DNA from: Verrucomicrobiota bacterium
Lineage (GTDB): Bacteria > Verrucomicrobiota > Verrucomicrobiia > Opitutales > UBA953
DNA length: 64,000 nt
Direction: 5' to 3'
Assembly: GCA_015061905.1 (NCBI GenBank)
Contig: SUVQ01000003.1
Location: 1-64,000 of the forward strand
This document shows positions 41,519-43,602 of the stretch, piece after piece (the first letter of the stretch is position 1; every line of letters starts with the position of its first letter). Under the pieces are notes generated by a model. The model saw only the letters and a program-made list of their open reading frames with translations. It was not told where the DNA came from and did not search any database. A program made the translations under genes and the position numbers.

Positions 41519-41545
41519 GCCTAACGAATTTCCCATTCGGTAAGC
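41519..41545 (+). repeat. Recombinase-type inverted site, pair 2 left
   Basis: 27 bp: arm GCCTAACGAAT, spacer TTCCC, arm ATTCGGTAAGC. Same arms as pair 1 (one base different), different spacer. Partner at 43576-43602. Confidence 0.87.
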
Positions 41546-41658
41546 AAGGTGATTTTCGGAAAAGCGTTGTGTTTCGGATGGCACGGGGAGGGCGGAGTTG
41601 TTGCGGAGGTTACCCGAAGCTTATTCTTTGGGTGTGGTTGCCCCACGCTCACATATCA

Positions 41659-41745
41659 GCTTGAAAAGCCGGACAACAATAACCGTAGGTAACTGCGTTA
41701 CCTACGGGATCTGCATAAAGATACGATGCGCTTGGAAAGCGCAAC
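41659..41745 (+). repeat. REP-like hairpins, left side of the Y1 transposase
   Basis: CTTGAAAAGCCGGACAACAA followed by hairpin CCGTAGGTAA / TTACCTACGG (41683-41692 with 41698-41707) and hairpin TGCGCTT / AAGCGCA (41727-41733 with 41737-41743). Mirror copies are at 42268-42356. Confidence 0.85.
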
Positions 41746-41764
41746 GATGCCGCGGCTTCGAGAC

Positions 41765-42217
41765 TTAGTCTTTCAGCCAATATTGTTCGTCCGGATTGAT
41801 ACCGTTTTCCTGCAGTATTTTTCTGTATTCGTTCTCAAAATTTACGACCTTGTGATGTTCCCGCTGCCGGGCAATGTAGGCGACGACACGCTCTTTGTCG
41901 GCTTCGCTCACGGCAAGCGCGGCGTATTGGCTTCCCCAAGCAATGAAATCCGGAAAAATTGTATGCTGTTTTTTCAGCCAGGCGTGAGTTGAGGTTTTTA
42001 ATTCTTTTACAAAATCGGAGACTGCAATCGAGGGATGAAGATCGACCAAAAGATGAAGGTGATTGGGGATTCCGTTTATTCTGTGAAGTACGCATTTCTT
42101 TCCGCGAACAAATCCCCAAATATAACGGTAGAGCTTTTCCGCGTGTTCGTTCGGGAACGCGTCGCGACTGTATTTGGTGCGAATGATAACGTGGAGAAGC
42201 AGATTCGTGTAACTCAT
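41765..42217 (-). CDS. IS200-like/REP-associated Y1 (HUH) transposase
   Basis: 150 residues from the ATG at 42217. HUH motif H53-L-H55 within PNHLHLLVDL, and catalytic Tyr114 in VVAYIARQREHH with Gln118. Single-strand transposases of this type move or spread hairpin-bearing elements. No TnpB is adjacent; instead two hairpin types are mirrored on both sides, fitting a REP-associated tyrosine transposase. It lies inside the segment bounded by inverted site pair 2, beside the tyrosine recombinase. Confidence 0.88.
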   Translation of the reverse strand: MSYTNLLLHVIIRTKYSRDAFPNEHAEKLYRYIWGFVRGKKCVLHRINGIPNHLHLLVDLHPSIAVSDFVKELKTSTHAWLKKQHTIFPDFIAWGSQYAALAVSEADKERVVAYIARQREHHKVVNFENEYRKILQENGINPDEQYWLKD

Positions 42218-42267
42218 GGATAAGAAAAAACGACAAAGAAAATCGTTTTTAGCGTAACGGCAACACA

Positions 42268-42356
42268 ATGTTGCGCTTTTTAAGCGCATTTCCCCTTGCC
42301 GGTCTCCGCAGGTAACTTGCTTTACCTGCGGTTATTATTGTCCGGCTTTTTAAGCC
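42268..42356 (-). repeat. REP-like hairpins, right side of the Y1 transposase
   Basis: Hairpin TGCGCTT / AAGCGCA (42272-42278 with 42282-42288) and CCGCAGGTAA / TTACCTGCGG (42306-42315 with 42322-42331) followed by TTATTATTGTCCGGCTTTTTAAG; an inverted copy of 41659-41745. Confidence 0.85.
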
Positions 42357-42499
42357 GTTCGGATTTCGGGGAGCATTGCCTTTTGCAATCAAAGAAAGGT
42401 GTTCTGTCGCGGAGGATAATCATGCGGATATTGTTCCCGACGGACTTTCGGAACAACGGTTTTGTTGCGTTTTTCGAGACAGTTGACTGAGGGGAAACA

Positions 42500-43552
42500 T
42501 CACCCGAACGTTCCCGCCCAAAAACGCTCGGCGGCGGCAAACGTCACTCCGCGCATTGATAAATAGCGCGTGCGCAAAAGGCGCGGGGACGAGTGCCCCA
42601 TCTCGCATTGGAGCTGCGGGAGGTTTTTGAAAAATTTCAAATGATAGCTCGCGAACGTGTGGCGTAGCACGTCCTGTTGCCACGGGTTTTCCGGTGAGCT
42701 CCAGCCGGCGGTGCGACGAATGCGTTTCCACTTGCGTTGCCAGTTCGGCGGACAAATTTTTTCGTCGGAAAAACGGGGACGCGCGGCAAGCAATTTTTCT
42801 AAAACCGGCAGAATGCTGACATGCCGGCTTCCGCCCGTTTTGCTGTGTAGCGGCGAAATCGAAATCACTTTTTCTTCCCAATCGATGTCGCTCCAGTAGA
42901 GGCGCTCGACTTCGCGAGGACGAATGCCCGCAAACAGCATCAGCGCGATCGCGGGAACGCATTCCCGCAAGTTCAGCTTCCGCGCGGCAGTGAAAATTGA
43001 CGCGATTTCGCCGAGCGACAACGGACGGATTTCACGCTCCTTCGGAATCGGAAAATCCGTCGCCGTTATCGGGTTTTCCCGGCACCACCCGTGCCGCACA
43101 CAATAGGCAAAAAACGAATGAAGCACGGCGCGCGCCTTGCGCCGCTGGCGCGGGGTGTTGAATGCGATTTCAAGAATTTTTCCGAAGGTCGGTGTATCCG
43201 CTGTATGGATACGCATAAGCGAACTTGTCGGGAATTGAGACAAAATCGAAGAAAAAACTTGCCGATAATCACAAATTGAGCGTTCCCGCAAGTGGCTTTT
43301 GGAAACGAGGAATTTCTTAAAAGCTTTGCGAAAATTCGGCGTGCGGCGTTCCCGCGAGGCAGCATCGCAACCGATGCGAAAAATGCTCCGCAAGCGACTC
43401 AGCTTTTTCGTGCGCCCGAGCTCGCTGAGTTCTTTGACGAAACGCGCGGCATCAAGCACGCCGATATCCGTATTTTCGAGGATTTTCTGCGCACTCGCCG
43501 CCTGTGCCACGAGCTCTTTGCTGACCCGAATTTTAAAGCCTTTCGTTTTCAT
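42500..43552 (-). CDS. Tyrosine recombinase (integrase/Xer-like)
   Basis: 350 residues. Core-binding domain about 70-165 and catalytic domain from about 175. Active-site residues are in place: Arg211 (MLFAGIRPREVERLYW), Lys238 (LHSKTG), Arg297 within DVLRHTFASYH (the usual His is Asp294), His320 (MGHSSP) and Tyr330 (TRYLSM). It lies wholly between inverted sites at 41519 and 43576, its start 24 bp from the right one. It is therefore the natural candidate for inverting this segment and the 218-bp one at 22.3-22.6 kb. Octamer copies show it is not a very recent arrival. Confidence 0.9.
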   Translation of the reverse strand: MKTKGFKIRVSKELVAQAASAQKILENTDIGVLDAARFVKELSELGRTKKLSRLRSIFRIGCDAASRERRTPNFRKAFKKFLVSKSHLRERSICDYRQVFSSILSQFPTSSLMRIHTADTPTFGKILEIAFNTPRQRRKARAVLHSFFAYCVRHGWCRENPITATDFPIPKEREIRPLSLGEIASIFTAARKLNLRECVPAIALMLFAGIRPREVERLYWSDIDWEEKVISISPLHSKTGGSRHVSILPVLEKLLAARPRFSDEKICPPNWQRKWKRIRRTAGWSSPENPWQQDVLRHTFASYHLKFFKNLPQLQCEMGHSSPRLLRTRYLSMRGVTFAAAERFWAGTFG

Positions 43553-43575
43553 AGCTCCACCAATCTACCCGCAAA

Positions 43576-43602
43576 GCTTACCGAATGGGAAATTCGTTAA
43601 GC
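43576..43602 (-). repeat. Recombinase-type inverted site, pair 2 right
   Basis: Read on the minus strand: arm GCTTAACGAAT, spacer TTCCC, arm ATTCGGTAAGC. Opposite orientation to 41519-41545. 21 nt before the ATG at 43624, with the same 21-nt leader as at 22589-22609. Confidence 0.87.

Follow-up and report, generated by a model that had tools for sequence, protein, structure and literature searches.

Results

Genes and inverted sites at the locus

The window analysed here is a 64,000-nucleotide stretch from the 2.08-Mb genome of a Verrucomicrobiota bacterium. At one of its operon junctions, the gene of a 350-aa tyrosine recombinase, the presumed invertase (42500-43552, minus strand), lies between two inverted recombination sites. 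An earlier interpretation made from the letters alone, hereafter the sequence-only reading, had described these sites as 27 nt long; they are real and extend to 29 nt, the left one at 41517-41545 (minus strand; core 41525-41539, spacer TTCCC on the plus strand) and the right one, inverted relative to it, at 43576-43604 (plus strand; core 43582-43596). The two are 97% complementary with 2,030 bp in between, and the 23-nt site core had no chance match in 100 shuffles with three mismatches allowed. Both genes that had been assigned to this 2,030-bp interior are borne out by profile matches, the recombinase to PF00589 (Phage_integrase; E 1.5e-10, 41.5 bits against a cut-off of 27.1) and a Y1 (IS200/RAYT-like) transposase (41765-42289, minus strand) to Y1_Tnp (E 1.8e-21). 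REP-like palindromes and inverted repeats surround the latter gene (41659-42355; arms 41659-41692/42322-42355 and 41726-41745/42270-42289).

On the left, the site lies 16 nt upstream of an fnlA-like UDP-GlcNAc 4,6-dehydratase/5-epimerase gene (40483-41502, minus strand; start at 41502), a distance that had been given correctly. It is the first gene of a UDP-L-FucNAc operon, together with genes for a UDP-2-acetamido-2,6-beta-L-arabino-hexul-4-ose reductase (fnlB/wbcJ-like; 39180-40397, minus strand) and a UDP-GlcNAc 2-epimerase-like protein (wecB/fnlC-like; 37509-38684, minus strand). On the right, the distance of 21 nt to a start codon (ATG at 43624) also holds, but the epimerase gene proposed there is a fragment: an NAD-dependent epimerase remnant of 61 codons followed by a stop (43624-43809, plus strand), which is full length in the sister species G001. 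The first intact gene of the right side is therefore that for UDP-glucose 6-dehydrogenase (ugd; 43861-45108, plus strand).

The window also encodes two near-identical small HTH-like proteins with weak TrmB/HTH_11 matches (23842-24378 and 47498-48019). Relatives encode one such protein near switch-controlled genes, and these proteins are possibly operon-borne regulators. As a separate observation, the octamer CGTTCCCG (often GCGTTCCCGC) occurs at 134 places in the window against 4 expected and constitutes a HIP1-like overrepresented motif.

The recombinase and its family

The catalytic residues proposed for the recombinase (R211, K238, R297, H320 and Y330) are invariant across six orthologues. 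We can add the sixth classical position, the His of the HxxR box II, which is Asp294 in this protein and His in XerD and XerA; the resulting R-K-D-R-H-Y set is invariant in all 24 family members examined. By NCBIfam equivalog cut-offs, the recombinase is none of XerC, XerA (47.2 bits, the best score, against 220), XerD (40.2 against 329.6) and integron integrase (19.2 against 265). The AlphaFold model of the recombinase is weak (pLDDT 66, C-terminus below 50), no homologues were found in viral contigs, and no recognisable promoter was found for its gene.

Close orthologues are confined to the same genus. A profile of these orthologues detected strong homologues in one genus of the same class (g54), which we take to be Akkermansia, with E about 1e-107 and as many as eight in a single genome; the g54 genome G202 is presumably A. 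muciniphila ATCC BAA-835, and the site motif agrees with this assignment. A search of G202 for the 15-bp motif CGGATT-N3-AATCCG, with one mismatch tolerated, located 100 sites (control, 0). Many of these form inverted pairs with private spacers, and several family recombinases have a site pair just upstream of their own gene. By sequence, then, the recombinase is a member of a verrucomicrobial family that is abundant in the genus taken to be Akkermansia. Three weaker homologues are present in genome G076. No convincing flanking site pairs were found at these distant copies or at the second copy in G001. Other, distant tyrosine recombinases are present in the genome of the window.

Enclosure of the recombinase by its sites in relatives

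The relatives compared were Opitutales MAGs from ruminant guts and Candidatus Spyradosoma. Inverted sites surround every orthologue with assembled flanks (G004, G005, G001 and G002, with protein identities of 97, 72, 70 and 55%, respectively), and the orthologue of G006 lies at a contig end. The enclosed arrangement was thus found in five species, including that of the window, and the site core TTTCCCATTCG is kept in the four relatives as in the window. The interior varies: the Y1 transposase is present in the window and G005, the interior of G004 is collinear, G001 has genes for a Fic protein and a HipA-like protein, and G002 has the recombinase alone. Since the interior differs between species, the recombinase with its inverted sites is the conserved unit, with the Y1 gene and the surrounding REP-like palindromes, absent from some relatives, as cargo. 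The genes flanking the element also differ in G001 and G002. The Fic-family and HipA-like genes take the place of the Y1 transposase in the G001 inverton at L048 11363-13716.

No inverted copy of the large element was found among the relatives, nor was an inverted version of the small element described below found, all sequences being MAG consensus assemblies. The four species with the leader flank described below share one orientation, for which the chance is 1 in 8 if orientation is random.

A second, smaller site pair about 20 kb away

Four matches to the core pattern lie within the window, and the exact form TACCGAAT-N5-ATTCGTTA is found at only four places in the whole genome, namely the two pairs of the window. 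The second pair, at 22320-22340 and 22565-22585, was absent from the sequence-only reading and lies about 20 kb from the large element. Its left site (22317-22343, minus strand; core 22323-22337, spacer TACGC) and inverted partner (22562-22588, plus strand) enclose 230 bp between the cores (22338-22567), an interior with no recognisable gene and, beyond the arms, with no similarity to the large element or to relatives.

This small pair separates two genes for GT4 glycosyltransferases. The left one (21045-22241, minus strand) is wbuB-like by position: in G004 and G005 its orthologue comes after the fnl genes in the same operon, and in the window the gene stands apart behind the small switch. 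The right one (22610-23845, plus strand) is fused to an epimerase leader and first codons (MKVLVTGGA). The leader with its start region lies beside the right site at both switches of the window and is identical over 53 nt (22584-22636, plus strand, and 43598-43650). Close versions precede an epimerase gene in G001, the remnant at 43624 and glycosyltransferase genes in the window, G004 and G005, and from these sequences the genes behind the switch seem to have been exchanged while the start region persisted.

Private spacers of the site pairs

Using the pattern CGAAT-N5-ATTCG, we searched the genomes of the genus for inverted pairs. The pairs found all have complementary spacers, namely TTCCC, TACGC and TACTC in the genome of the window (the third located outside the window), TTCCC and TCCCT in G004, TTCCC, TCCCT and TTCTC in G005, TTCCC in G001, TTGCA in G002 and TACTC in G007; those of the window genome come from exact-pattern searches, and further imperfect pairs are possible. 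All pairs are at most 2.5 kb apart, except for the 3.7-kb element of G001, and by chance about 0.00015 pairs would be expected in a genome. G003, which has no recombinase gene, has no site pairs, and 20 other genomes of the family and order contain 47 sites and no such inverted pair. The spacers are complementary within each pair and differ between the pairs of one genome. This pattern is the one that strand exchange by a tyrosine recombinase requires.

The TACTC, TTCTC and TTGCA pairs take the form of almost perfect hairpins with T runs after them, without TTGC, and one of the TACTC pairs belongs to G007, a genome without a close recombinase; pairs of these three kinds may therefore not be targets of the enzyme. 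Private-spacer, terminator-like inverted pairs next to a SEL1-repeat or ankyrin-type gene are located at G000:C16:85715-86012, G005:C42:16243-16478 and G007:C11:25624-25784.

Inversion between two sister species

At the TCCCT pair, positions 4224-6073 of G004 (L088) align in reverse to positions 8241-6396 of G005 (L089) with 93.7% identity, and both flanks align forward. The reversed G004 segment is 1.85 kb, the forward and reverse alignments overlap by the 15-bp core, and the breakpoints fall in CGAATTCCCTATTCG; when the G004 segment was inverted in silico, a single collinear alignment of 4.57 kb was restored. The site sits within the gene of an EpsG-type polymerase. This gene encodes 364 aa in G005 and is followed by an acetyltransferase-like gene (shortened there), and the G004 version, of 329 aa, ends differently and has a Wzy_C-type polymerase gene after it in the same direction. 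Ordinary homologous recombination needs repeats longer than 15 bp, and the inversion is thus site-specific. At the level of assembled sequence, the TCCCT pair provides direct evidence that this family of sites can invert. Because G004 has no other homologue of the recombinase at E<=1e-3, we infer that the enzyme studied here made the inversion.

Promoter-like boxes around the sites

In all six promoter-type elements (the large and small elements of the window and those of G004, G005, G001 and G002), TTGC abuts one inner side of the site and AAGC the other, and an outer-arm TANNNT box (TAGGCT, TAAGCT or TATGCT) lies 18 nt beyond the TTG hexamer. A putative split promoter toward fnlA (41518-41547, minus strand) would consist of TTGCTT (41547-41542) inside the segment, an 18-nt spacer containing the site core, and TAGGCT (41523-41518) outside. 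On the ugd side, a candidate resident -10, TAAGCT (43598-43603, plus strand), has no -35 in the sequenced orientation, in which AAGC rather than TTGC is present. Likewise, at the small switch, a proposed split promoter toward the wbuB-like gene (22316-22345, minus strand) would combine TTGCCT (22345-22340) inside, an 18-nt spacer and TAGGCT (22321-22316) outside. The proposed boxes are weak matches and were not detected in a strict sigma-70 consensus scan. In G202, 16 pairs were examined. Each has a TTG, mostly as part of TTGAC, at a distance of 7 or 8 nt inward from the core, and in 15 of them it stands on exactly one side; the binomial P is below 1e-16 at one fixed offset. From these sequences, the simplest reading we infer is a segment with a single -35, flanks with one -10 each, and the site as the spacer.

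Discussion

The element in the window is most probably a self-enclosed DNA inversion switch, or inverton, of the recombinase encoded at 42500-43552, to which we assign a probability of roughly 0.8. An invertible switch worked by its own recombinase was already the proposal of the sequence-only reading, and the enclosure in five species, the paired private spacers, the one inversion between sister species and the membership in an Akkermansia-type family all speak for it. The suggestion that the FucNAc operon and the ugd side would be switched on alternately agrees with a TTGC on one side only and a TANNNT box in each outer arm.

In the mechanism we propose, the recombinase would bind the two inverted flanking sites (13+5+13 nt) and exchange strands within the 5-nt spacer, and the exchange would invert the 2-kb segment holding its own gene. 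The interior would carry a single mobile -35 (TTGC) at the fnlA end and each outer arm a resident -10 (TAGGCT or TAAGCT), with the recombination site serving as the promoter spacer, and inversion would take the -35 away from the UDP-L-FucNAc operon and give it to the ugd side. Other pairs would be targets of the same enzyme in trans. One of them is the 230-bp switch at 22317-22588, at which inversion would hand the -35 from the wbuB-like gene to the other glycosyltransferase gene. As sequenced, the large element would have the FucNAc operon switched on and the -35 of the small switch would serve the wbuB-like gene, and the two switches of the window could together give four surface-glycan states. 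Private spacers would explain how one enzyme can flip many switches without scrambling the genome. We see even odds for the proposal in its general form, namely that verrucomicrobial R-K-D-R-H-Y tyrosine invertases use their site as the spacer of a split promoter, with a mobile -35 between two resident -10s, and that in the genus of the window the switch has come to enclose its own recombinase, which governs several private-spacer switches, comprising both promoter switches and intragenic polymerase swaps, for combinatorial surface glycans.

Other explanations can be given for parts of these data. The inverted repeats could be the terminal repeats of a mobile element consisting of the recombinase and optional Y1 or toxin-like cargo, with the 230-bp pair as a MITE-like non-autonomous derivative and with no programmed inversion. 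The cargo does vary by species (Y1 genes, Fic and HipA-like genes, or none), as do the flanking genes in G001 and G002. However, each repeat is a dyad with a spacer, unlike a simple terminal repeat, the spacers change in concert within a pair, and one pair is precisely inverted between species; in addition, the small interior resembles neither the large element nor relatives beyond the arms, no empty site was identified among the enclosed loci compared, and the family members of Akkermansia adjoin invertons of a kind shown to flip. We consider a mobile element of this type unlikely. It is very unlikely that the sites serve between operons as intrinsic terminators for both directions, or as regulatory hairpins, and owe their conservation to this role while the recombinase acts elsewhere. 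Each site is a palindrome, and the hairpins and T runs expected of terminators are present at the TACTC, TTCTC and TTGCA pairs, but the sites of the window lie upstream of start codons on both sides and have no T run scored as a terminator. Moreover, a terminator needs neither an identical private spacer in its partner nor a precise inversion breakpoint, and such pairs occur in none of the 20 control genomes.

The switch could also be real and the enclosed recombinase locked or decaying, with inversion carried out by another recombinase such as a Xer protein or a distant paralogue. The genome does contain distant tyrosine recombinases, and the G007 pair occurs without a close homologue. Against this, the catalytic residues are all invariant and no orthologue has an interrupted reading frame. 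G004, which differs from G005 in the orientation at the TCCCT pair, has no homologue besides this recombinase at E<=1e-3, and the genome without the gene (G003) is without pairs. Inversion by another enzyme is rather unlikely.

In the Hin/hix flagellar switch of Salmonella, the gene of a serine recombinase lies inside an inverted, promoter-bearing segment. The element described here likewise has the recombinase gene within its own invertible segment and a putative promoter carried by that segment, but its enzyme is a tyrosine recombinase and the promoter is apparently split by the site. It does not belong to the Hin class, which has a serine recombinase, and is Hin-like in its working only. 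The switches of the fimS/FimB-FimE type are similar in the use of a tyrosine recombinase, short inverted repeats and promoter inversion. They differ in that the recombinase genes are located outside the switch and the whole, unsplit promoter lies within the segment. Mpi of Bacteroides, a serine recombinase that inverts capsule promoters at multiple loci, offers a parallel in that a single recombinase would serve several polysaccharide promoters in trans, and differs in the recombinase type, the sites and the phylum. Gene-altering (intragenic) programmed inversions have reportedly been described by Milman in 2023 and Chanin in 2024. The G004/G005 inversion is of this kind, as it changes the C-terminus of the EpsG polymerase and swaps the next gene, and differs in sharing its site family with promoter switches.

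The closest likeness is with Akkermansia, in which the inverton motif CGGATT..AATCCG has been described and the cps1 inverton has been found in both orientations, with the capsule on and off (PMC13343947); A. muciniphila inverton group 138 has also been reported (PMC11892184). The two systems share a homologous recombinase family, a 15-bp palindromic core, many private-spacer pairs, control of polysaccharide loci and TTG abutting one inner side of the site. They differ in the arms and spacers (CGAAT-N5 in the genus of the window and CGGATT-N3 in Akkermansia) and in the position of the recombinase: several Akkermansia recombinases lie outside, just downstream of an inverton of about 140-190 bp that seemingly controls them, whereas in the genus of the window the recombinase lies inside an inverton of 1.2-3.7 kb whose putative promoter faces sugar operons. 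The properties of an Akkermansia-type inverton recombinase were found here as homology, the R-K-D-R-H-Y set, private-spacer pairs of about 15 bp and inversion, the last at the G004/G005 pair only. The first interpretation is thus supported in substance, the system being an Akkermansia-type inverton with the recombinase inside its own invertible segment. With it, the inverton system known from Akkermansia reaches a further order of gut Verrucomicrobiota, and a likely enzyme family can be proposed for this system, the paper on the cps1 inverton not mentioning or naming a recombinase (PMC13343947). In addition, a promoter whose spacer is the recombination site is a mechanism that can be tested on dozens of Akkermansia invertons.
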